A stretch of 33,542 nucleotides of DNA from a virus. Position 1 is the first letter of the stretch. Every line of letters starts with the position of its first letter. Under the pieces are notes generated by a model, which did not search any database, had not been told where the DNA came from, and was given only the letters and a program-made list of their open reading frames with translations. The DNA is taken from positions 1 through 33,542 of IMG/VR virus record IMGVR_UViG_3300030104_000822; one strand, given 5' to 3'. Both the position numbers and the translations under genes were made by a program. Below, piece by piece: positions 5,163 to 33,542 of the stretch.

Positions 5163-5581
5163 AGCCAAAGACAGAAGATAGAAAGAAGTTTGACCTGGAT
5201 TTACAGTATGGTCAAGTAAGAGAAAAGATTGTGGCCGACATGCTACAAGATAAAAAAATAGAAGTAAAGTCTGAAAGAGGTATGTGGTTACAGACAGGTA
5301 ACATAGCTATAGAATATGAAAGCTATGGTAAACCTAGTGGTATTAATGCTACTAACTCAGACTATTGGTTTCATAATTTATGTGTGGGAGATGAAGTGTT
5401 TGGCACATTAGTGTTTGAAACAAAGATGTTAAAGAAAATTATTAATGCATCTATTAATAATAACCAGGTTAGGAGTGTATCTGGTGGAGACCATAACGCA
5501 TCTAGAATGTATTTACTAAATATACAGAATCTTTTTTCTCAAAATATAATTAAAAATTCAACAGGAGATGTCAATGACTAA
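5144..5581 (+). CDS. PD-(D/E)XK nuclease-like protein (possible endonuclease)
   Basis: A 145-residue protein with Shine-Dalgarno AGGAG before ATG 5144, overlapping the polymerase end by 19 nt. The core is QVREKIVADMLQ, KKIEVKSERGMW, GNIAIEYESYGKPSGI and NSDYWFHNL. The E-x-K of IEVKSE, with a following hydrophobic strand carrying IEYE, fits the catalytic pattern of the restriction-endonuclease-like superfamily. T7-type phages carry an endonuclease I of this superfamily for Holliday junctions near the polymerase, so a resolvase or host-DNA nuclease role is plausible. It is not recognisably T7 gp3. The catalytic aspartate before IEVKSE is not certain. Confidence 0.55.
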   Translation: MGRNSLEPKTEDRKKFDLDLQYGQVREKIVADMLQDKKIEVKSERGMWLQTGNIAIEYESYGKPSGINATNSDYWFHNLCVGDEVFGTLVFETKMLKKIINASINNNQVRSVSGGDHNASRMYLLNIQNLFSQNIIKNSTGDVND

Positions 5582-6182
5582 AGAGACATGGAAACAAATT
5601 ATATATCCAATTTTTTTTAGAGGTTATGAAATAAGTAACGAAGGTAATATAAGAACTAATTGGAAAAAACATGCTAATCAATATAAAAGAGAACAACAAG
5701 AAACTTGGAGAGAACACAAAACATTTAAATATCATAAAGGAAAAAAAACTACAAGTCCTAATAAAAAGTATGTGCAGACAAGATTGAATATTAATAATGA
5801 TGAATTAGAAAAACAAACAGACCATAATTATTATAAGAAACACAAAAATACAACCACTAGGAGTTTAGATGTTCATAGATTAGTTGCACTACATCACATA
5901 GAACTTAAACCAAGTAATCTAAAAGGTTTAAATATGACAGATGAAGAATGGAAAAATGTTCCTAACGTATTAAAAGATTTTGTAAGAGAATGTATAATAG
6001 TTAATCATAAAGATAATAATGGTTTAAATAATAACGTTAGTAATTTAGAATTTTGTACTCAAAAATATAATACTCAACATTATTATAGAGAACATTTTAC
6101 AGAAGAAAAAAGAGAAGAGAGTAGAAAAAAAACATTAGAAGGATTAAAAAGAAAAAAAGTATTGACAGTAAATAATTTTTAA
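5574..6182 (+). CDS. NUMOD4/HNH free-standing homing endonuclease
   Basis: A 202-residue protein. The N-terminus has a NUMOD4-type element (GYEISNEGNIRTN), the middle DVHRLVALHHI, and the HNH core IIVNHKDNNGLNNNVSNLEF followed by CTQKYNTQH. In this family, VNHxDxNxxNNxxxNLE supplies the metal-binding and catalytic histidine and asparagines. Such enzymes cut a specific site in related genomes and spread their own gene. ATG 5574 is chosen because AGGAG lies 6 nt upstream; ATG 5568 is too close to it. The gene is more AT- and lysine-rich than its neighbours, consistent with recent insertion, and carries the -35 box of the next promoter in its 3' end. Confidence 0.85.
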   Translation: MTKETWKQIIYPIFFRGYEISNEGNIRTNWKKHANQYKREQQETWREHKTFKYHKGKKTTSPNKKYVQTRLNINNDELEKQTDHNYYKKHKNTTTRSLDVHRLVALHHIELKPSNLKGLNMTDEEWKNVPNVLKDFVRECIIVNHKDNNGLNNNVSNLEFCTQKYNTQHYYREHFTEEKREESRKKTLEGLKRKKVLTVNNF

Positions 6183-7941: not shown

Positions 7942-8302
7942 AGATTTGACATTTGCAGAAAGTCATGCTAAACTATATGCTGATATGATAAATTATGAGG
8001 AGCAAGAAAACATGGGAATGATGGACGAAGCAATAAAAGAAACAGTAAAAAGTAAAGGCTTTGTAAAAACAGATTTAAAAAAACAAGCATTAAAAGCTAC
8101 ATTAAAACAAATAGGTGGTAATCATTATAAAGATTGTAAGATACAACCTATAGAATATATTTATGCTAATAACTTAACTTATGCCGAAGGTAATGTAATT
8201 AAATATGTTACAAGAAGTAGAAGAAAAGGTGGAAGAAAAGATTTAGAGAAAGCAAAGCACTACATAGAAATGATTTTGGAGATGGAATACAATGATGAAT
8301 AA
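7925..8302 (+). CDS. DUF3310 protein (phage nucleotide-kinase-like)
   Basis: A 125-residue protein from ATG 7925 (GTG 7919 is an alternative), with AGAGGTGAAG just upstream. The C-terminal half carries the DUF3310 signature: GGNHYKDCKIQPIEYIYANN, then EGNVIKYVTRSRRKGG and DLEKAKHYIEMIL. The family is often labelled a putative nucleotide kinase, but its activity is poorly established. The first 55 residues are charged and look disordered. It overlaps the reductase gene that follows, consistent with a shared role in nucleotide supply. Confidence 0.85.
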   Translation: MTKKNKDLTFAESHAKLYADMINYEEQENMGMMDEAIKETVKSKGFVKTDLKKQALKATLKQIGGNHYKDCKIQPIEYIYANNLTYAEGNVIKYVTRSRRKGGRKDLEKAKHYIEMILEMEYNDE

Positions 8303-10217
8303 TTATTTACCAACAGAGTATCAAAGTTTTATACACTTATCTAGATATTCTAGATGGTTGCCTGACGAAGGCAGAAGAGAAACATGGATTGAAACAGTAT
8401 CTAGATTTAGTAACTTTATGCAGATACATTTAAAGAAAAATTTAGGTGTTGAAATAGAAAGTGAAACATGGAGACAGATAGAAGATTATATTATTGGTCT
8501 TTCTGTTATGCCTTCTATGAGAGCACTAATGACTGCCGGCACTGCATTAGAAAGAGAAAACATTGCTGGTTATAATTGTTCTTATATTCCTATTGATAAT
8601 CCAAAAGCATTTGATGAGATACTTTATATTCTTATGAATGGCACAGGTGTAGGTTTTTCTGTTGAAAGACAGTACGCAGATAAGTTGCCTACTATTCCGG
8701 ATAGAGAGTTTGAAAAAACAGATGATGTAGTATCTGTCAGTGATTCAAAAGAAGGGTGGGCAAGAGCATTTAAAGACTTAATATCTTATCTTTATACTTG
8801 TAGAATACCAAAGATAAATGTTAGCAAAGTAAGACCAGCAGGTCAAAGATTAAAAACATTTGGTGGTAGAGCAAGTGGGCCACAACCTTTGGTTAATCTT
8901 TTTGATTTTGTTATTGATAAATTTAAAAATGCAAAAGGTAGAAAATTAAACTCTATGGAGTGTCATGATATTGCATGTAAGACAGGTGAAGTTGTAGTTG
9001 TAGGTGGTGTGCGTAGGTCTGCTTTAATATCTTTGAGTAATTTATCTGACCAAAGATTAAGAGCAGCAAAGTCTGGTGCTTGGTGGGAGACAACTCCTGA
9101 AAGAGCATTAGCAAATAACTCTGTTGTATATACAGAAAAACCAGATGCAGGTATTTTTATGAAGGAGTGGTTGTCTTTATATGAAAGTAAGTCTGGAGAA
9201 AGAGGTATATTCAACAGAGTATCAGCACAAGAAAAAGCTAGAGAAAATGGTAGACGTAATGGAGGTTATGATTTTGGTACTAATCCTTGTAGTGAAATAA
9301 TATTAAGACCTAATCAATTTTGTAATCTAACAGAGGTAGTTGTAAGACCTATGGATACTGAAGAAAGTCTACACAGTAAGATAGAAGTTGCTACTATACT
9401 AGGAACAATACAATCTACATTAACTAACTTTGGTTATCTTAGAAAAAGATGGCAACAGAATACTGAAGAGGAAAGACTTCTTGGTGTATCTCTTACAGGT
9501 ATTATGGATAATTCTCTTCTTAATAGAAGAAGACATAAACTACCAGAGATGTTACAAAGTATGAAAAATAAAGCTGTGGTTATTAATAAAGAGTGGGCAA
9601 ATAAATTAGGCATACCTCAGTCAACAGCTATTACTTGTGTCAAACCTTCAGGAACAGTAAGTCAATTAGTTGATAGTGCTAGTGGTATTCATGCTAGACA
9701 TAACTCACATTATATAAGAACAGTTAGAGGTGATAACAAAGACCCACTTACAGAGTTTATGAAAGAACAAGGTATTCCAAATGAGCCAGACGTAATGAAG
9801 CCAGACCATACCACAGTGTTTTCTTTTCCTATGGAATGTGATGCAGGTGCTGTATTTAGAAACACATACTCAGCTATTGAACAATTAGAAATATGGAAAT
9901 CTTATGCACAACATTGGTGTGAACATAAACCTTCCGTAACTATCTCTGTTAAAGAAGAAGAATGGGTAAACGTAGGTAACTGGTGTTGGGATAATTTTGA
10001 TTATCTTTCTGGTGTATCTTTCTTACCTTTCTCAGACCATACTTATCAGCAAGCACCTTATCAAGATATAGATAAAGAACAATATGAATCTTTACAATCT
10101 AAGATGCCGGCTAAAATAGATTGGTCTAAGTTACAAGACTTTGAGAAGGAGGATAATACTAGAGGTTCACAAGAGTTAGCATGCACTGCAGGTTCATGTG
10201 AGTTAGTAGATATTTAA
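8292..10217 (+). CDS. B12-dependent (class II, monomeric) ribonucleotide reductase
   Basis: This enzyme reduces ribonucleotides to deoxyribonucleotides using an adenosylcobalamin-derived radical. At 641 residues it is shorter than the Lactobacillus leichmannii enzyme (739), but the key cysteines match in order and spacing. C96 in YNCSYIPID and C344 in FCNLTEV form the active-site dithiol. C333 in NPCSEI is the thiyl-radical cysteine with E335 nearby; the 11-residue step to C344 matches C408-C419. C631 and C636 in ACTAGSCEL are the C-terminal shuttle pair, matching C731-C736. GGVRRSALISL and VKPSGTVSQL are further family segments. The phage therefore depends on host cobalamin. ATG 8295 is an alternative start. 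Confidence 0.92.
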   Translation: MMNNYLPTEYQSFIHLSRYSRWLPDEGRRETWIETVSRFSNFMQIHLKKNLGVEIESETWRQIEDYIIGLSVMPSMRALMTAGTALERENIAGYNCSYIPIDNPKAFDEILYILMNGTGVGFSVERQYADKLPTIPDREFEKTDDVVSVSDSKEGWARAFKDLISYLYTCRIPKINVSKVRPAGQRLKTFGGRASGPQPLVNLFDFVIDKFKNAKGRKLNSMECHDIACKTGEVVVVGGVRRSALISLSNLSDQRLRAAKSGAWWETTPERALANNSVVYTEKPDAGIFMKEWLSLYESKSGERGIFNRVSAQEKARENGRRNGGYDFGTNPCSEIILRPNQFCNLTEVVVRPMDTEESLHSKIEVATILGTIQSTLTNFGYLRKRWQQNTEEERLLGVSLTGIMDNSLLNRRRHKLPEMLQSMKNKAVVINKEWANKLGIPQSTAITCVKPSGTVSQLVDSASGIHARHNSHYIRTVRGDNKDPLTEFMKEQGIPNEPDVMKPDHTTVFSFPMECDAGAVFRNTYSAIEQLEIWKSYAQHWCEHKPSVTISVKEEEWVNVGNWCWDNFDYLSGVSFLPFSDHTYQQAPYQDIDKEQYESLQSKMPAKIDWSKLQDFEKEDNTRGSQELACTAGSCELVDI

Positions 10218-10260: not shown

Positions 10261-10404
10261 ATGGCAAGAAAAGCAATAGGAGCAATTAAGAAGTTTAAAT
10301 CTTTTTTTAAGAAGGTTACTTCTATAGGTGACTCTGTAAGAAGTAGACCAAAGAATAAACATAAACGTAGAAACTATAAAAAATATAAAGGACAAGGTAA
10401 ATGA
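10261..10404 (+). CDS. 47-residue very basic protein from a leaderless mRNA
   Basis: The frame runs from ATG 10261 to TGA 10402-10404. About 40% of residues are lysine or arginine. The N-terminal helix (ARKAIGAIKKFKSFFKKV) is amphipathic and the C-terminal half (RPKNKHKRRNYKKYKGQGK) is likely disordered and nucleic-acid binding. There is no Shine-Dalgarno; instead a sigma70 promoter ends 6 nt before the ATG, implying leaderless translation. The stop overlaps the next ATG (ATGA). Similar lysine-rich microproteins ending in a KYKGQG-like tail seem familiar from other marine phages, but I know no function. Confidence 0.6.
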   Translation: MARKAIGAIKKFKSFFKKVTSIGDSVRSRPKNKHKRRNYKKYKGQGK

Positions 10405-10649
10405 AAATAATTTTATTATTAATAGTAAGTTTAATTACAGTACAATTAAAAGCAGATGCATGGTTTGATTCAGTAGGATATAGATACTACCATGATTTAG
10501 ATAATGAACGTAAGGGTTCTAAGTTTAGAAGTTATGCTACTAAAAAATTATCTAATGATGATAGATTAAAGATAGCATATGAAAGACAAAGACCTGGTAG
10601 TGGTTTTGAATCAGGTGTGTTTTTTATAGATTACGAATGGAAGTTCTAA
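10401..10649 (+). CDS. Small exported protein, possible outer-membrane fragment
   Basis: An 82-residue protein with a clear signal peptide (MKIILLLIVSLITVQLKADA) and a mature part of about 62 residues. The mature part has alternating aromatic and polar residues (YRYYHD, FRSYATKKL, LKIAYERQRPG, GVFFIDYEWKF) and a C-terminal phenylalanine, the signature of outer-membrane beta-strands. It is too short for a whole barrel, so it may oligomerise or simply be a small periplasmic protein. It could alter the host surface or lysis. It lies in an ATGA overlap with the leaderless gene. Function is not established. Confidence 0.55.
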   Translation: MKIILLLIVSLITVQLKADAWFDSVGYRYYHDLDNERKGSKFRSYATKKLSNDDRLKIAYERQRPGSGFESGVFFIDYEWKF

Positions 10650-10650
10650 T

Positions 10651-11445
10651 ATGAATATGAAAATTAGAAATGACATGGATACAGTTTATATTGGTTATGA
10701 CCCTAGAGAACATGCGGCATACGAAGTTTTAAAGTTCTCTATAGAAATACGTGCCAAGAATCCTGTAAGAATTATACCTCTTAAAAAAGAAGCATTAATT
10801 AAAAATGGTATGTTTAGAAGAAGGTCTAATAAAATAGGCAATCAACAGTATGATGAGATAGATGGTAGACCTTTCTCTACTGATTTTAGTTTTACTAGAT
10901 TTCTTATACCACATTTAAGTTTATATACTGGTTTATCTTTATATATGGATTGTGACATGTATTGTTATGGAGATATAACAGAGTTGTTTGATATGTGTAG
11001 AGATAGTTACTATCCTGTGTGGGCAGTGCATCATAAATACGCACCTGAAAAAGGAACTAAAATGGATGGTCAAGCACAAGAACCTTACAACATGAAGAAC
11101 TGGTCTAGTCTTATGATGTTTAATAACGAACATCACTATCTTGATACGTTAAGTATTGATGCTGTGAATACACAAAAAGGTAGATGGTTACATACATTTA
11201 AGTGGTTGCCTGATGAAGAGGCAGATATAGGGCAATTACCTGAAGAATGGAACTGGCTTGATGGTCATTCATCAATAGATATAAAACCTAAGATTGTGCA
11301 CTTTACAACAGGTGGGCCTTGGTTTGCTAAATGGAAACCTAGAGGAGTAACTGAAGGTAAGTATGCTGTGAAATGGTGTGAAGATGCTAGATGGTTACAG
11401 ATGAAAGGTATTATACCTAGAGAAAAAGATTATTTAATACAATGA
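10651..11445 (+). CDS. GT8-like glycosyltransferase
   Basis: A 264-residue protein (ATG 10657 is an alternative start). The N-terminus, TVYIGYDPREHAAYEVLKFS, is the nucleotide-sugar binding start common in GT-A enzymes. LSLYMDCDMYCYGDITELF holds the DxD motif (D100-C-D102) that binds metal and the sugar nucleotide, and PKIVHFTTGGPWF near the C-terminus matches the HF-x-G-x-x-PWF end of glycogenin-like GT8 enzymes. No membrane segment or signal is seen, so it acts in the cytoplasm. It opens the sugar/methyl cassette. The acceptor is unknown: virion protein, host polysaccharide precursor and modified DNA base are all possible. Confidence 0.8.
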   Translation: MNMKIRNDMDTVYIGYDPREHAAYEVLKFSIEIRAKNPVRIIPLKKEALIKNGMFRRRSNKIGNQQYDEIDGRPFSTDFSFTRFLIPHLSLYTGLSLYMDCDMYCYGDITELFDMCRDSYYPVWAVHHKYAPEKGTKMDGQAQEPYNMKNWSSLMMFNNEHHYLDTLSIDAVNTQKGRWLHTFKWLPDEEADIGQLPEEWNWLDGHSSIDIKPKIVHFTTGGPWFAKWKPRGVTEGKYAVKWCEDARWLQMKGIIPREKDYLIQ

Positions 11446-11669
11446 GAGAACTAACAAATACATTATATATGTCTTTGAGATGCCATTATAAGAGTCAAGT
11501 AAATAAAGCATTATATCAACTTGACTTGGCATTTCAAAAACCTGTTGCAATAGGAGAACATCCTAAGTTAGTAGATGATTGTGTTATTTTAATTAAACAG
11601 TTATCAGAAGCGGAAGAAGCATTAGAAACATTGGAGAAAAATTTTGGAATCTACAAAGAAAGAAGTTAA
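11442..11669 (+). CDS. Small helical phage protein of unknown function
   Basis: A 75-residue protein in an ATGA overlap with the glycosyltransferase stop. It starts MRELTNTLYMSLRCHYKSQV, contains KPVAIGEHPKLVDDC, and ends in an acidic helix (LSEAEEALETLEKNFG). Two antiparallel helices around the IGEHP turn are likely. The same layout is familiar from hypothetical proteins of marine phages, with no function known to me. Its last part carries the Shine-Dalgarno and TTG start of the next gene. Confidence 0.65.
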   Translation: MRELTNTLYMSLRCHYKSQVNKALYQLDLAFQKPVAIGEHPKLVDDCVILIKQLSEAEEALETLEKNFGIYKERS

Positions 11670-13956
11670 TATTGTTACATCATTTAGTGAGACCATACTA
11701 AAAGATACAGCAATACATTTATTAAATTCAACAAAAGAAAACTTAGACAATAGTATTAATTTTACTGCTTATTATCATGACTGTAAGATAGATGCCTACT
11801 CTTTACCAGATTATACTTATAAAAGTTTACATGATATAAAAGACCATGAAGATTTTTTAAAAAGATATGCAGAGCATGATGGTACAGAAGAAGGTAAGAT
11901 ACCATACAATGAAAAATTAGATGCATTAAAATGGTCACATAAAGTATTTGCCTTAACAGAAAAAGCATTTGAACTAGCGGAAAAAAGTAGAGAAGCTGGT
12001 TGGTTAATTTGGATAGATGCAGATTCTTATTTAAAGAAAAGATTAACTAAACAGGATATGTTATCTATGTTAAATGATAAAGCTGATATTGTTTATAATC
12101 CTGATGAACCTTTCTTCATGGCTTTTAATTTAGATAAACAACCTACTGTAGATATACTTGCAGATTTACGTGGTGCATATATACTAGGTGAAATGATTAA
12201 GTATAGAGAGTGGCATGATTACTATGTATTTTCTAGGCTGTTAAATATTTATCAAGCACATGGTATGAAAGTAGAAAAGATAAATTCCATGAATGATTAC
12301 TTTTATCATTTTGCTGGTAGACCAGACTTTTCTAAAGTAGCAATACGAAAAGGTAATGGTGAACGAGCTTTTCCTTTATCAGACAATGTTGCTCCTGATA
12401 TTAAACCTAATAGGTATCAACAAATATCACAGATAATGAAAGAGTATAAACCAAAAACTGTTATTGAGACTGGTACATGGAATGGTGGTAGAGCTATAGA
12501 GATGGCATTAACTGCATTTGATTATACTGATACGTTTACTTATCATGGTTATGATTTATTTGAAGATGCGACTATTGAAACAGACCATGAAGAGTTTAAT
12601 GCAAAGGCACATAATAAATTATCCGCAGTTAAGAAAAGACTAGAAGAGTTTGCAGAACATATGAAAGAAAATAAAAATAAAACTTTTATATTTGAACTTA
12701 ATAAAGGTAATACTAGAGATATCTTAAAAGACCAAAGTGAATGGTTTGACATGGCACTTATAGGTGGTGGTAATAGTATTAAAACTGTAGCTCATGATTA
12801 TGATTGTGTAAAGCAAACACCTATTGTAATGCTTGACCATTACTTCAGAGAAGATGATGATAAGATGGCACCTAATGATGCATATTGTGGTGTGAATAAA
12901 GTATGGGAGAAATTAAAAGATAATAAAAATATTCGTAAACATGTATTACCTTCCGGAGATAAAGTAAAAGATGGTGGGTTTACACATTTTATGATAGTGT
13001 TAAATGATAAAAGTTTAGCTAATATACCTGCTGATTTACAAAGAGTTCCTATTGTAGTTAATCCTAGAGATTGTGTTCCTAAAGATTATATACGTGGTAA
13101 TATAAAAGATAATATGAAATTAATACCACAGGATAAATTTATACAAAAATGTAGAACACATAATGACCATGCTATTATTATATCCGGTGGGCCAAATATA
13201 GATTATGAAGAATTAAAAAATACATTAGCTAAATATCCTGATGCTATAACTATGTGTGTTAAGCATGCATACCCTGGTCTTATAACTAACAATATAAAAC
13301 CTAACACATGTATATTATTAGACCCACGTTCTATAGAAGGTGAGAGCACACATGGAATTAAGAGAAAAGATTTATTAAAAGATTTAGATAAAGATACTAA
13401 GTTTCTTGTTGCATCTATGACAGACCCTTCTGTTACTAATTATCTTATGGAAAAGAAAGCAGACATCTGGGGTTGGCATGCATTTACAGAATCTTTAAGA
13501 GATGAAGAAGATAGAAAACATGCTATCAAAAATAATCAAGTAAAGATTAGAGAAGATATAGGTTTACCTGTAGGTGCTACATTAATTACTGGTGGCACGT
13601 GTGCAGCTATGAGAGCTATTGGTATGTTACATACTATGGGTTTTAGAAACATGCACTTATTTGGTTTTGAATGTTCATTAGAAAAAGAACCTACAGATGA
13701 TATGAAGAAAGAAACTACTGGTGCAGATGATGAACCTAAAAGACCAAAGTATTTTCAAGTATCTGTTGGTGATAAATCATATTGGACAACTGGTGAGCTT
13801 TTAGCAATGGCACAAGATTGTGAGAAAACTTTTGCTGATAAAACTATGGGTATTAATTATTATTTTTATGGTAAAGATAGTTTAGTATCTGAGATATGGA
13901 AAGGTGCTCAACAAAAAGAAACATTACCTAACTATAAGGATATGTTAAATGCATAA
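11644..13956 (+). CDS. Three-domain fusion: GT-A-like + SAM methyltransferase + DUF115/MptE-like
   Basis: A 770-residue protein starting at TTG 11644, with GGAG 7 nt upstream. Domain 1 (about 1-235) resembles a GT-A glycosyltransferase: WLIWIDADSYLKKRL supplies a DxD (D125, D127), followed by PDEPFFMAFN and a helical part. Domain 2 (about 255-470) is a Rossmann methyltransferase: VIETGTWNGGRAIEMA (near 275), HGYDLFED, MALIGGGNS and VMLDHYFRED. Domain 3 (about 500-770) resembles DUF115, the MptE/Maf family: HAIIISGGPNIDYEEL, then TCILLDPRS, LITGGTCAAMRAIGML and MHLFGFECS. DUF115 proteins include archaeal pterin diphosphokinases and flagellin glycosylation factors. The stacking of three activities suggests sequential modification of one substrate. 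Domain borders are estimates. Confidence 0.75.
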   Translation: MESTKKEVNIVTSFSETILKDTAIHLLNSTKENLDNSINFTAYYHDCKIDAYSLPDYTYKSLHDIKDHEDFLKRYAEHDGTEEGKIPYNEKLDALKWSHKVFALTEKAFELAEKSREAGWLIWIDADSYLKKRLTKQDMLSMLNDKADIVYNPDEPFFMAFNLDKQPTVDILADLRGAYILGEMIKYREWHDYYVFSRLLNIYQAHGMKVEKINSMNDYFYHFAGRPDFSKVAIRKGNGERAFPLSDNVAPDIKPNRYQQISQIMKEYKPKTVIETGTWNGGRAIEMALTAFDYTDTFTYHGYDLFEDATIETDHEEFNAKAHNKLSAVKKRLEEFAEHMKENKNKTFIFELNKGNTRDILKDQSEWFDMALIGGGNSIKTVAHDYDCVKQTPIVMLDHYFREDDDKMAPNDAYCGVNKVWEKLKDNKNIRKHVLPSGDKVKDGGFTHFMIVLNDKSLANIPADLQRVPIVVNPRDCVPKDYIRGNIKDNMKLIPQDKFIQKCRTHNDHAIIISGGPNIDYEELKNTLAKYPDAITMCVKHAYPGLITNNIKPNTCILLDPRSIEGESTHGIKRKDLLKDLDKDTKFLVASMTDPSVTNYLMEKKADIWGWHAFTESLRDEEDRKHAIKNNQVKIREDIGLPVGATLITGGTCAAMRAIGMLHTMGFRNMHLFGFECSLEKEPTDDMKKETTGADDEPKRPKYFQVSVGDKSYWTTGELLAMAQDCEKTFADKTMGINYYFYGKDSLVSEIWKGAQQKETLPNYKDMLNA

Positions 13957-14596
13957 CAGGGCCGAGCCTTCACAAGATTATGTGGATTTATTAACAGAAT
14001 ATAAAGAACTACACAAAGACCCTAAATACTTTAATGGTATTTGTCTAGTAACACATTTAAATACACTATCAAATATTATAATAAAAGAAGGCACTAAAAG
14101 TATTTTAGATTATGGTTGTGGTAAAGGATTATTGTATGATGATGAAAAATATAAAACAATGAAACTTAATAAACAAGGACAGTCATTGCCTAAACCTTTA
14201 CAAAAAATATGGCAACTTGATTATCATGCTTTATATGACCCAGCATATCCTAAACATAGTAAGCTACCAAAAGGTAGATATGATGCTGTTATATGCACAG
14301 ATGTTATAGAGCATATAGATGAAAAAGATGTTGATTGGATACTAGAAGAAATATTTTCTTATGCTAGAAAGTTTGTATTCTTAACTATAGCTTGTTACAA
14401 AGCATTAAAAACATTTAAAGATGGTAGAAATGTGCATGTAAATATAAAGACACCGGAGTATTGGACAGATAAATTATTAAAGTTACATGATAGACACCCA
14501 CATTTAAATATACATTATAGTTTAGATGTGTTAGAAGATGAGAATGCGGAGAAGCTAGTATCATTAACAGAGTTTAAAAAAATAGAAAGGAAATAA
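13949..14596 (+). CDS. Class I SAM-dependent methyltransferase
   Basis: A 215-residue protein overlapping the fusion gene by 8 nt, with AAGGA before its ATG. Motif I is ILDYGCGKGLLYD (SAM binding) and motif IV-like is RYDAVICTDVIEHI, both usual for small Rossmann methyltransferases acting on small molecules or sugars. EIFSYARKFVFLTIAC follows as the next strand. The C-terminal part (HVNIKTPEYWTDKLL) may form the acceptor pocket. It lacks the [DNS]PPY motif of DNA-amino methyltransferases, so it is unlikely to be a DNA adenine or N4-cytosine methylase. It ends the sugar/methyl cassette just before the holin. Confidence 0.8.
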   Translation: MHNRAEPSQDYVDLLTEYKELHKDPKYFNGICLVTHLNTLSNIIIKEGTKSILDYGCGKGLLYDDEKYKTMKLNKQGQSLPKPLQKIWQLDYHALYDPAYPKHSKLPKGRYDAVICTDVIEHIDEKDVDWILEEIFSYARKFVFLTIACYKALKTFKDGRNVHVNIKTPEYWTDKLLKLHDRHPHLNIHYSLDVLEDENAEKLVSLTEFKKIERK

Positions 14597-14597
14597 T

Positions 14598-14996
14598 ATG
14601 GCACTATTAAGTTTAATAGGACCTGCTACAAAGTTACTCGGTAAGTTTATAGAAGATAAAGATGTAAAAAATAAACTTGCTCATGAGGTAGCTACAATGG
14701 CAGAGAAACATGCACAAGAATTAGCTAAAGGACAACTAGAAATAAACAAAGCGGAAGCAAAATCTGGTAATATATTTATTGCCGGTTGGAGGCCCTTCAT
14801 AGGTTGGGCATGTGGAGTTGCCTTGGTATGGCACTTTATTGCAGCTCCGTTTATTATTTTTTTTGCAGCTTTATTTGGTGCAACATTGCCACCATTACCA
14901 GAGTTTGACATGGGTAGTTTAATGACTGTGTTAATGGGTATGCTTGGTCTTGGCGGTCTTAGAACTTTTGAAAAGTATAAGAAAGTTACTAAGTGA
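14598..14996 (+). CDS. Holin of the 3-TM (GTA-type) family
   Basis: A 132-residue protein with AGAAAGGAAATAAT before ATG 14598. An N-terminal helix rich in Lys/Glu (DVKNKLAHEVATMAEKHAQE) is followed by AGWRPFIGWACGVALVWH, the hallmark of the 3-TM holin family found in phages and gene transfer agents, then IAAPFIIFFAALFGATLPP and a C-terminal hydrophobic stretch, MTVLMGMLGLGGL. It would collect in the inner membrane and time the access of the lytic transglycosylase, encoded on the opposite strand, to the cell wall. The stop overlaps the next GTG. Confidence 0.88.
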   Translation: MALLSLIGPATKLLGKFIEDKDVKNKLAHEVATMAEKHAQELAKGQLEINKAEAKSGNIFIAGWRPFIGWACGVALVWHFIAAPFIIFFAALFGATLPPLPEFDMGSLMTVLMGMLGLGGLRTFEKYKKVTK

Positions 14997-31183: not shown

Positions 31184-31972
31184 TTAACTCCCAAATGTAG
31201 GACTATCAAGAACTTGATGGTCTGCTCCAAGTCCTGTAGGTGTCCAATCTCTATTATTACCACTAGAATCATTTCCTAAATCACTAGCATTTTCAAATTT
31301 TAAATAAAAATCTTGATTAGATAAACCACTTATGTCAATAGGTCTCCATACACCATTATGCTCTTCTGCAAAAGAAGTTGGTGTTAATACTCCTGCACTT
31401 CCACTTGCACTTATCATCATCATTTCTGCTAAATATCCATCAACATAGTTGCCATCTGCATTTCTACCTCTACTTATATAATGGGCACACCCCGTATTAT
31501 TTATTACACTTCCTGTACCACCATCTAAAGAACCACTTCCTACTTGAGTTCCATTTATATATAAAAGAGTAGTTCCTGCATTATTACTCCAAACAAGATG
31601 TGTCCATCCTGTAGGGTCACGAAATACTGCAGTTGTATCAATTATATTTGTTGCTCCAGAGTTAACTCTTATAAACTGGCCATGACTTGCGTCCATTAAG
31701 CCTATTCTTAATAAAGTATCTGAAGAACTACTACCACCATTACCAGCAGATAAAAACTCTTGTGATGTTCCTGAAGATAGTGAATGTGTTTTAAACCAAA
31801 AAGAAAATGTCCAATAATCATTATTACCACTTCCTTCAGGTAATCTTAAATAAGAAGGAGTTGCTTTATCAAATCTACAACTTTGTTCTATTTGATAATC
31901 ATAAAAAGCTGCTCCACCTGCACTTGCTGCTGCTGCAGCTCCTGCTAATAAATTATTTTGAAAAACTCCCAT
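31184..31972 (-). CDS. LamG/concanavalin-like adhesin tail protein
   Basis: A 262-residue protein opening MGVFQNNLLAGAAAAASAGG, then FYDYQIEQSCRFD, a conserved virion-attachment start in marine phage adhesins. Residues about 40-200 form a LamG jelly-roll: YWTFSFWFKTHSL, TLLRIGLMDAS, GWTHLVWSNNAGTTLLYING and VDGYLAEMMMISAS, with the characteristic W-x-H-[LIV] strand. Such domains bind carbohydrates, so this is a candidate host-recognition fibre tip. It starts in a TAATG overlap with the repeat-rich fibre gene, implying linked production. Confidence 0.75.
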   Translation of the reverse strand: MGVFQNNLLAGAAAAASAGGAAFYDYQIEQSCRFDKATPSYLRLPEGSGNNDYWTFSFWFKTHSLSSGTSQEFLSAGNGGSSSSDTLLRIGLMDASHGQFIRVNSGATNIIDTTAVFRDPTGWTHLVWSNNAGTTLLYINGTQVGSGSLDGGTGSVINNTGCAHYISRGRNADGNYVDGYLAEMMMISASGSAGVLTPTSFAEEHNGVWRPIDISGLSNQDFYLKFENASDLGNDSSGNNRDWTPTGLGADHQVLDSPTFGS

Positions 31973-33542
31973 TATGCGTATGCCTGTGAAATTACCATTT
32001 GTATATCTCCACCAACTCCATCACTAGATGCAGATACTACAATATAATCTAATCTATCTACTGCACCATTTGCTGTTGATAAGGTTGGGTCTGTACCACC
32101 AATAAATTTAAAATCTGCGTTATAAGCCATTGTACCACTTCCTCCACTTTGTGTCAAGAAAATACTTCCTGTTTGTCCTGTTCTACATCCTGTGGGTTTA
32201 GCTAGTGTATGTGCTGCTGTAACTGTTGTACTAAAGTTTTGTGCATTACCAAAGTTTAATGATACTGAAGCTACACCATTAATAGCTGTTGCACAAACAA
32301 CTGCTGCTGCACTTTTTGTTAATTGTAATTGTCCTTCTAATGAAGTATTACCTGATACTCTTACTGTTCCTAAGAAACCTGTATTACCTGTGACTGTTGT
32401 AGCACCTGTTACTTTTAACGTGCCTACTAATTGTGAATTACCTGATACACAAACATCTCCATCAAACTCTGCTTTACCACCTACTGTTAATGTACCACCT
32501 ACAGATGTATTACCACCTATAGTTGCAGTTCCACCTATATTTAAATTGCCAGATACAGATGCATTACCTGCTACATCTAATGTACTTCCAAGAGATACAG
32601 CACCTGTTATAGTTGTTGTTCCACCTATTGCAACATTACCACTAACTGATACATCATCTTCAAATTCAGCTTTACCTGTAATATTAGATGTACCACCTAT
32701 AGAAACATTACCAGCTATTGTAGCTGTTCCTCCTATAAAAGCATTGCCTGATATACAAACGTCATTATCAAACTCTACTTTATCGCCAAAAGTTTTATTT
32801 GTAAATGTTTGTGTTGCTGCTAATCCTGCTAATGTATCTGCAGATGCAGGCATTACTAAAGATATATTTCCAGAAAAATCTGCGTGTGCAGGTGCTTTTA
32901 ATGCAGCATAATGAGCATTTGCTGATTCACAATACATTCTAAGTTCAGAACGTGAACCTGTATTTTTTAAATCAATAATACCACCACCAACACTTACAGT
33001 TCCTTTAATAGTAGCACTACCACTTACAGAAACATCATCTTCAAATTCTGCTTTACCTGTTGCTAAAAATGTACCTCCTATTGAAGTATTACCTGTTACA
33101 TCTAAAGTAGAACCTAATGATACTGCTCCGGCTATTGTAGTATGACCTCCAATATTCATATCACCAGATACTGATACATCACCATCAAATGTTGCATTAC
33201 CAGTTATAACTGCAGTTCCGCCTAATGAAGTATTACCTGCTACATCTAAAGTACCACCTATTGTAGTATTACCAGAAACTCTTGCTGTTGTTAAAAATCC
33301 TGCAGCTCCTGATACAGTAACTGTGCTTATAAAATTAGCTGCACCACCTACACTTAATGTTCCTCCTATTGATGCGTTGCCTACAATAGTAGCTGTGCCA
33401 CCTATAACTGCATTACTTGCGACACTTAATGTGCTTTGTAAATGTGCAGCTCCTACAACTGTAGTAGTACCACTTACATATAAATTACCACCTATAGTAG
33501 CATTTGAAACTGATATATTACCTTGAACAACAGCAGTAATAT
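31972..33542 (-). CDS. Repeat-rich tail fibre protein (5' end outside the window)
   Basis: The frame is open from 31972 to the right edge, at least 522 residues; the in-frame ATG at 33159 is internal, because no stop occurs upstream of it. Most of the protein is a degenerate repeat of the form [VA]-[ST]-G-N-x-x-[IV]-G-G-T-x-x-[IV], with recurring AEFEDDVSVSG and LDVTGN. Short Gly/Ser/Thr turns with alternating hydrophobics predict a triple-stranded beta-helical fibre shaft. The last 110 residues (TGQTGSIFLTQSGGSGTMAY, then LSTANGAVDRLDYIVVSASS) match the end of the fibre at 27417-28337. Role: a long tail fibre or its shaft. Confidence 0.75.
   Translation of the reverse strand, partial: ITAVVQGNISVSNATIGGNLYVSGTTTVVGAAHLQSTLSVASNAVIGGTATIVGNASIGGTLSVGGAANFISTVTVSGAAGFLTTARVSGNTTIGGTLDVAGNTSLGGTAVITGNATFDGDVSVSGDMNIGGHTTIAGAVSLGSTLDVTGNTSIGGTFLATGKAEFEDDVSVSGSATIKGTVSVGGGIIDLKNTGSRSELRMYCESANAHYAALKAPAHADFSGNISLVMPASADTLAGLAATQTFTNKTFGDKVEFDNDVCISGNAFIGGTATIAGNVSIGGTSNITGKAEFEDDVSVSGNVAIGGTTTITGAVSLGSTLDVAGNASVSGNLNIGGTATIGGNTSVGGTLTVGGKAEFDGDVCVSGNSQLVGTLKVTGATTVTGNTGFLGTVRVSGNTSLEGQLQLTKSAAAVVCATAINGVASVSLNFGNAQNFSTTVTAAHTLAKPTGCRTGQTGSIFLTQSGGSGTMAYNADFKFIGGTDPTLSTANGAVDRLDYIVVSASSDGVGGDIQMVISQAYA

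Follow-up and report, generated by a model that had tools for sequence, protein, structure and literature searches.

What does a phage build, and on which acceptor, with a run of sugar- and methyl-transferring enzymes encoded between its nucleotide-metabolism and lysis genes? This question was raised by the virus record IMGVR_UViG_3300030104_000822 (33.5 kb, 33% G+C), whose whole stretch of 33,542 nucleotides is referred to here as the window. A first-pass annotation, made from the sequence alone, described four overlapping open reading frames (ORFs) at positions 10651–14596, between nucleotide-metabolism and lysis genes, as a four-gene sugar/methyl modification cassette. The coordinates were verified, with overlaps of 4, 26, and 8 bases between successive ORFs, a ribonucleotide reductase gene on the 5' side, and a holin gene on the 3' side, and the reading as a modification cassette was supported by the domain content, the co-travelling genes, and the retention of catalytic residues. 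The unit proved to comprise three genes rather than four, encoding a GT8-type glycosyltransferase (GT8), a 770-residue fusion protein, and a separate methyltransferase (MT), with the ORF for a 75-residue protein standing outside it. Among the three targets that the annotation had offered, we favored a virion protein, with a probability of about 0.55, while a hypermodified DNA base was disfavored and remodeling of the host envelope had little positive evidence.

Conservation of a three-gene unit

Scans of IMG/VR yielded 46 close loci at first, and then 127 relatives of the fusion and 417 relatives of the GT8 protein, from which the best 80 of each were retained. Gene order was counted over 66 distinct fusion loci, with the loci having enough flank as denominators. 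The GT8 gene was located immediately 5' of the fusion gene in 63/63 loci and the MT gene immediately 3' of it in all 55, and a ribonucleotide reductase gene was present within 6 kb on the 5' side of the fusion in 40 of 40. The gene for the 75-residue protein, in contrast, separated the GT8 gene from the fusion gene in just 32 of 64 loci; in L032, L042, L103, and others, it had moved to between the exonuclease gene and o114. This neighborhood survey bore out the expectation that the genes travel together as far as GT8 and MT are concerned, but not for the 75-residue protein. A four-gene unit was ruled out, because the small gene is missing from its position in half of the loci, and the real unit is GT8, fusion, and MT.

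The three-gene unit was still intact at fusion identities down to about 50%, and dN/dS values of about 0.04–0.25 for each fusion domain indicated purifying selection (the values for the GT8 gene of L004 and the MT gene of L021, which were misaligned by indels, were set aside). Given the invariant partners on both sides and these dN/dS values, the cassette is not a chance arrangement. All of the fusion loci came from one phage lineage and represent a stable inherited unit, not repeated gain. No relative of the fusion was found among 50,697 phage records at an E-value of 1e-5, and none in isolate phages. Bacterial genomes contained a single relative, L056, on a contig of a Sneathiella metagenome-assembled genome; this contig bears phage genes and so provides no host evidence. 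It carries a complete run of replication genes, cassette, and terminase.

Folds and catalytic residues of the encoded enzymes

The GT8 protein matched the Pfam GT8 family (PF01501) with an E-value of 4e-4 and 20.4 bits, under the gathering cut-off of 24.3 bits, and its homologues in L053 (30.9 bits) and L049 (36.6 bits) scored above this cut-off. An AlphaFold2 (AF2) model of the protein (predicted template modeling score (pTM) of 0.78) aligned with LgtC (1g9r) at Z 16.6 and a root-mean-square deviation (rmsd) of 3.3 over 212 residues, and it also matched LARGE1 (Z 15.2), glycogenin (Z 14.9), and UGGT. D100 and D102 (the DxD motif, 10948–10956) and H217, a probable metal-binding His, were invariant in 81/81 distinct homologues and may be equivalent to the ligands of LgtC. 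The protein thus models as an LgtC/glycogenin-type enzyme, sharing the fold, the DxD motif, and the probable metal-binding His with the GT8 family, and differing from it in the sub-cut-off Pfam score and in the motif HFTTGGPWF, in place of the HxxGxxKPW-type motif that we take to be the usual ending.

The fusion consists of three parts, termed here domains N, M, and D from the N-terminus onward (Table 1). Direct sequence comparison of the fusion with solved structures gave no match, and the domain profiles gave only the Maf glycosyltransferase 5mu5 at an E-value of 0.94 (domain D) and weak methyltransferase matches. An AF2 model had a mean predicted local distance difference test score (pLDDT) of 78 and a pTM of 0.47, values at which the domain folds are usable and the mutual placement of the domains is unusable. 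In the PDB ranking for this model, 5mu5 came first (E-value of 3.5e-8), followed by COMT-like methyltransferases and then by alpha-1,3-galactosyltransferase and LARGE1. Domain N, of GT-A type, was detected by the structure model alone, as was domain M; it accounted for the Foldseek matches of the whole model to alpha-1,3-galactosyltransferase (E-value of 1e-6) and LARGE1, and its DxD motif (D125/D127) was kept in 60 of 61 sequences, with NTN in L056. GT8 and domain N were ruled out as duplicates, with no detectable profile similarity between them (hhalign, 0.6%).

Domain D matched PF01973 over fusion residues 486–680 with E-values of 1e-14 to 2e-15 (57.3 bits vs. a cut-off of 34.6), and the family was recovered in 20/20 diverse fusion members. 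The domain has the motifs SGGP, LDPR, LITGGT, and LFGFE/D, with S514, G515, G516, D560, and P561 present in 61/61, and hhalign aligned it with bacterial PF01973 proteins of 814–919 residues (81% probability, E-value of 1e-5) across the SGGP, IKP...LDP, and MGF...L.GFD motifs. Maf enzymes modify flagellin by attaching nonulosonic acids to Ser/Thr; the PF01973 domain of these enzymes is similar to the sialyltransferase Cst-II, and Kdo is accepted by CbMaf (PMC11339370). From these properties, and because domain D aligns with the bacterial PF01973 proteins, it most likely acts as a third sugar transferase, of Maf/sialyltransferase type, with a cytidine monophosphate (CMP)-sugar donor. The domains counted in the first-pass annotation (two glycosyltransferase-like, two methyltransferase, and one DUF115) are present, with the DUF115 domain better read as this third glycosyltransferase.

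The wording "most likely" is called for because the archaeal pterin kinase MptE shares PF01973. The family is named after MptE, and its controls matched in archaea; if domain D were an MptE-type diphosphokinase, the cassette could make a soluble small molecule, such as a nucleotide-sugar or pterin product, or modify a host protein, and the resemblance of the SAM-fold (S-adenosylmethionine) domain M to COMT and other small-molecule methyltransferases would suit that role. We consider this very unlikely: the top structural match of the whole fusion model is a Maf glycosyltransferase, the polypeptide that contains the PF01973 domain also has a GT-A domain, and in homologous sets, PF01973 occurs together with glycosyltransferases.

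The likeness to the Maf flagellin glycosyltransferases (Magnetospirillum Maf 5mu5 and CbMaf) may extend to the position of PF01973 after a Rossmann domain, as aligned by fold and profile; by VIA, the match of 5mu5 to the fusion spanned 322 residues from several domains, at Z 17.1 and an rmsd of 13.8. Unlike Maf, the fusion has an extra N-terminal GT-A domain, and its SAM-fold domain is without sequence similarity to the N-terminal part of Maf. No N-terminal Maf domain being detected by sequence, the fusion was not classed as a Maf, and the PF01973 assignment applies to domain D only. The substrate of Maf is flagellin, and we found no evidence here for flagellin as the substrate of the phage enzyme.

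Domain M (fusion residues 242–457) resembled SafC, COMT, and TrmR by VIA (Z of about 15, with 15.5 for SafC/COMT, and rmsd of about 3). It has the motif ETGxxNGG, and E275, G277, G282, D304, and D398 were all found in 61/61. By motif order only, G374 (61/61) lies where the metal-ligand Asp of COMT/TylF-type enzymes is expected, after strand 4, while D398 is preserved and followed by H or N; the metal ligands of COMT are D141, D169, and N170. Domain M could be a methyltransferase with an altered center. It is possible, though doubtful, that it is instead the counterpart of the degenerate Rossmann domain found ahead of PF01973 in Maf (PMC11339370), in which case the fusion would be GT-A plus Maf, a composition that fits any target. 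The domain order, the alignment of fusion residues 241–754 with Maf 31–502 by VIA, and the replacement of the probable metal-ligand Asp by the invariant Gly374 agree with this alternative, whereas SAM motif I, like the acidic residue D304, shows no variation, the multi-domain match has an rmsd of 13.8, and hhalign of domain M to the N-terminal parts of bacterial PF01973 proteins gave 0.2–1.5%, a value that lends no support by sequence to its identity with the Maf N-terminal domain. A duplication linking domain M with the separate MT was also rejected, as their alignment was limited to the SAM motif (11.8%).

The separate MT matched PF13489 with an E-value of 2.4e-7, over the cut-off, and phrog_24759 with an E-value of 1.6e-23; its residues D54, G56, and G58, which belong to the class I SAM motif I, and D118, E121, and H122 were present in 57/57. 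A loss of catalytic residues across homologues, which the annotation had considered damaging to its proposal, was not observed for the three core genes (GT8, 81/81; domain N DxD, 60/61; MT, 57/57). The three-domain GT-A/SAM-fold/PF01973 protein, together with GT8 and MT, probably provides three enzymes for sugar transfer, along with either one or two methyltransferases. In the literature searched, we found no description of such a fusion with fixed GT8 and MT partners; phage-encoded virion glycosylation and MptE-like phage genes are already known. Among viral models, the best match of the fusion was A0A6J7X5Q0 (714 aa, uncultured phage; E-value of 2e-50, 26% identity), a match from which the architecture probably extends past the phage group of the window. 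The second-best viral model for GT8 was A0A6J7X573, with an accession number near that of A0A6J7X5Q0.

Recurrence in unrelated phages and the probable acceptor

Because synteny within a lineage can be inheritance, unrelated phages weigh more in the search for a function. Caulobacter Ccr phages encode a PF01973-like protein, a GT8 homologue, a methyltransferase, and GT9 directly 3' of tail genes and 5' of lysis genes, and in podovirus ctDrO704, a methyltransferase and GT8 are flanked by the major capsid gene and later structural genes. Tetraselmis virus S20 has a weak PF01973 match, GT-D, and a methyltransferase within its head-tail run. Stenotrophomonas phage DLP_6 combines a GT8 homologue with a GT29 sialyltransferase-like protein and two methyltransferase-profile matches. 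In podovirus ct7QV12, a domain N homologue is accompanied by a methyltransferase, by an aminotransferase, and by the large terminase. In Synechococcus cyanophage S-SCSM2R (L229:9001–12526), a GT8 homologue lies a few kb from KdsB-/KdsA-type genes for CMP-Kdo synthesis, suggesting that CMP-Kdo is made by the phage. In Pelagibacter phage Mosig EXVC030M, gp189 (L053:7312–8028, annotated hypothetical) is a stand-alone domain N homologue (E-value of 1e-16) adjoining a GT8 homologue (41% identity), with methyltransferases, 3' of a ribonucleotide reductase as in the window; unlike in the window, the genes are separate, the methyltransferases are of FkbM type, a sulfotransferase is present, and PF01973 is not detectable. 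GT8 and methyltransferases thus form a recurring set, often with a sialyltransferase-type enzyme or a CMP-Kdo supply and several times in virion gene blocks. The HMO-2011/CRP-9 literature that we searched left glycosyl- and methyltransferases unmentioned.

We propose that GT8, the fusion, and MT constitute a soluble cytoplasmic pathway by which one of the phage's particle proteins would receive a short, methyl-capped glycan. The GT8 enzyme and domain N would add sugars from nucleoside diphosphate donors, probably with a divalent metal; domain D would attach a CMP-activated ulosonic sugar, either onto Ser/Thr directly or onto the chain, and CMP-Kdo of a Gram-negative host could supply its donor; and the separate MT, perhaps with domain M, would O-methylate the terminal sugar. 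The benefit may be a shielded or altered particle surface. A protein is the favored target because Maf-type enzymes and several GT8-fold enzymes (glycogenin, UGGT, and LARGE1) act on proteins, and because homologous sets are found among virion genes.

The nearest system characterized in detail, with a comparable division of labor, is that of chlorovirus PBCV-1. Its A064R protein (638 aa) is a single chain in which a metal-dependent retaining rhamnosyltransferase is joined to a second rhamnosyltransferase, of an unusual kind, and to a methyltransferase; a further methyl group is contributed by A061L (209 aa), finishing the end of the capsid N-glycan (PMC9614988). As predicted for the window, a soluble multi-domain chain with a DxD-type glycosyltransferase, a second glycosyltransferase, and a methyltransferase is accompanied by a separate methyltransferase of about 210 residues. 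The two differ in domain order (glycosyltransferase, glycosyltransferase, methyltransferase in PBCV-1 vs. glycosyltransferase, methyltransferase, PF01973 in the fusion), in the family of the second glycosyltransferase (that of A064R-D2 vs. PF01973), in the extra GT8 gene of the window, and in the host, bacterial rather than algal. The likeness may be one of functional analogy only. In mycobacteriophages, the capsid and the tail tube are reported to be decorated by glycosyltransferases that are likewise phage-encoded (Freeman et al. 2023, cited in PMC12619734); the hosts and the set of genes are not those of the cassette described here.

The cassette could instead remodel the lipopolysaccharide (LPS) or another surface glycan of the host envelope and in this way block, for example, superinfection or the binding of particles to debris. 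LgtC-like GT8 enzymes, to which the fold matches, act on LPS, an exported 82-residue protein is encoded beside the cassette in numerous relatives, and the holin gene adjoins the cassette. We regard an envelope target as unlikely, because the homologous sets elsewhere sit among virion genes and because the three enzymes are without membrane segments (highest 19-residue hydropathy of 1.2). Moreover, neither a flippase nor a lipid-linked glycosyltransferase was among the matches listed for relative G004 (L184–L186), a genome of 57 kb with the primase at one end and the polymerase at the other, which for this reason is taken as near complete.

The same genome bears on the synthesis of a glycosylated hypermodified DNA base. 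A ribonucleotide reductase gene is nearby both in the lineage of the window and in Mosig, and phage glycosyltransferases that decorate DNA are known (Pyle et al. 2024, as cited in PMC12619734). Nevertheless, a search of 14 virus records from the group, several of them of 54–62 kb, detected no member of the thymidylate-synthase/dCMP-hydroxymethylase family PF00303, while the positive controls matched, and no base-modification, other glycosyltransferase, or nucleotide-sugar gene was found among the matches listed for G004, in which small ORFs leave room. Further, enzymes of the Maf and LgtC types are not known to act on DNA. Taken together, these data made a DNA base an improbable target.

Several points also weigh against a glycan on a virion protein. 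No acceptor protein was identified, and in the phage of the window, the cassette lies outside the structural gene run. The fixed gene order may be plain vertical inheritance inside one phage lineage, membership in PF01973 does not by itself establish sugar transfer by domain D because archaeal pterin diphosphokinases are in the family as well, and domain M probably lacks one of the metal ligands that COMT/TylF-type enzymes have. In addition, the DxD motif of domain N is lost in one relative, L056, and the inter-domain confidence of the fusion model is low. With these points in mind, we offer only tentatively, and as clearly less probable than a virion target as such, the fuller reading in which a large group of uncultured marine phages would use fusion, GT8, and MT to assemble on a virion protein an O-glycan that is methylated and contains an ulosonate. 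In that reading, the fusion would be a one-chain glycan builder, combining a nucleoside diphosphate-sugar transferase, a methyltransferase, and a CMP-ulosonate transferase of Maf/sialyltransferase type, and the whole set would be the phage counterpart, made of other domains, of the chlorovirus capsid glycosylation machine.

Surroundings of the cassette and implications

The features of the cassette and its flanks are summarized in Table 1. The start of the holin gene lies 2 bases past the MT stop, and a small terminase subunit is also encoded 3' of the cassette. The cassette abuts the holin gene, and starts and stops in this stretch overlap or adjoin one another, an arrangement that suggests late co-expression.

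Table 1. Positions in the window of the cassette genes, the domains of the fusion, and the flanking genes.
Feature	Position	Strand	Remarks
GT8-type glycosyltransferase, 264 aa	10651..11445	+	phrog_28018, E 9e-53
75-aa small protein, phrog_1811	11442..11669	+	outside the conserved unit
770-aa fusion, TTG start: GT-A + SAM-fold + PF01973 Maf-type domains	11644..13956	+
Fusion domain N, GT-A-type glycosyltransferase	11644..12378	+	DxD D125/D127 at 12016-12024
Fusion domain M, class I SAM-methyltransferase fold	12391..13029	+	motif ETGTWNGG, 12466-12489
Fusion domain D, PF01973 (MptE-like/DUF115/Maf_flag10)	13030..13953	+	motif SGGP, 13183-13194
Separate SAM-dependent methyltransferase (MT), 215 aa	13949..14596	+	motif DYGCGKG from 14108; DVxEH
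Ribonucleotide reductase, upstream context	8292..10217	+	phrog_367, E 1.4e-186
82-aa exported protein, just 5' of GT8, non-core	10401..10649	+	signal-peptide-like N-terminus
GTA-type holin, downstream context	14598..14996	+	PF11351, E 1.3e-21; phrog_3427

The DNA polymerase of the window was nearest to those of Pelagibacter phages HTVC115P (46%), HTVC104P, and HTVC103P (45–46%), the top three of 4040 records. HTVC103P-type pelagiphages are thus the closest isolates by this gene, while HTVC115P carries no cassette gene in its left 31 kb. A survey of such genomes has described group IV, a related group of metagenomic genomes that has no cultured members (PMC8528129). The genes for the large terminase subunit (TerL) and the capsid are absent from the window, whereas relative G004 matched TerL and the major capsid protein. 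G004 also encodes Hsp20, GroES, glutaredoxin, and a ferredoxin-like protein, and one of its structural-side proteins matched the Chlorovirus glycoprotein repeat PF06598.

The 82-residue protein (GYRYYHD...DNE) is encoded 5' of GT8 in the window and, in a membrane-anchored form, 3' of MT in other phages; relatives of it lie beside the cassette, at either end, in L097, L103, L105, L108, L118, L150, and others. Its C-terminus, with an aromatic-lysine-Phe end, resembles an outer-membrane beta-signal, and its length is too small for a barrel. An HNH endonuclease gene at 5568–6182 was also found in L001, L024, and L062; since few relatives have it at that place, it is probably a mobile homing gene. 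At 31972–33159, the window encodes a tail-fibre-like, structural-side protein of 395 residues built of repeated GNxSxGGT-type units, and this protein could be a candidate glycan acceptor.

If a virion protein is indeed the target, abundant marine phages would use a compact set of enzymes of their own, independent of the host machinery, to build the glycans of their particles. This would matter for the stability of the particles and for grazing and adsorption in the ocean, and the set would at the same time offer a ready-made enzyme for glycosylation and methylation in several steps. A Maf-type O-glycosyltransferase carried by a phage would, further, make a role in protein O-glycosylation testable for the widespread, unexplained MptE-like/DUF115 genes of phages.

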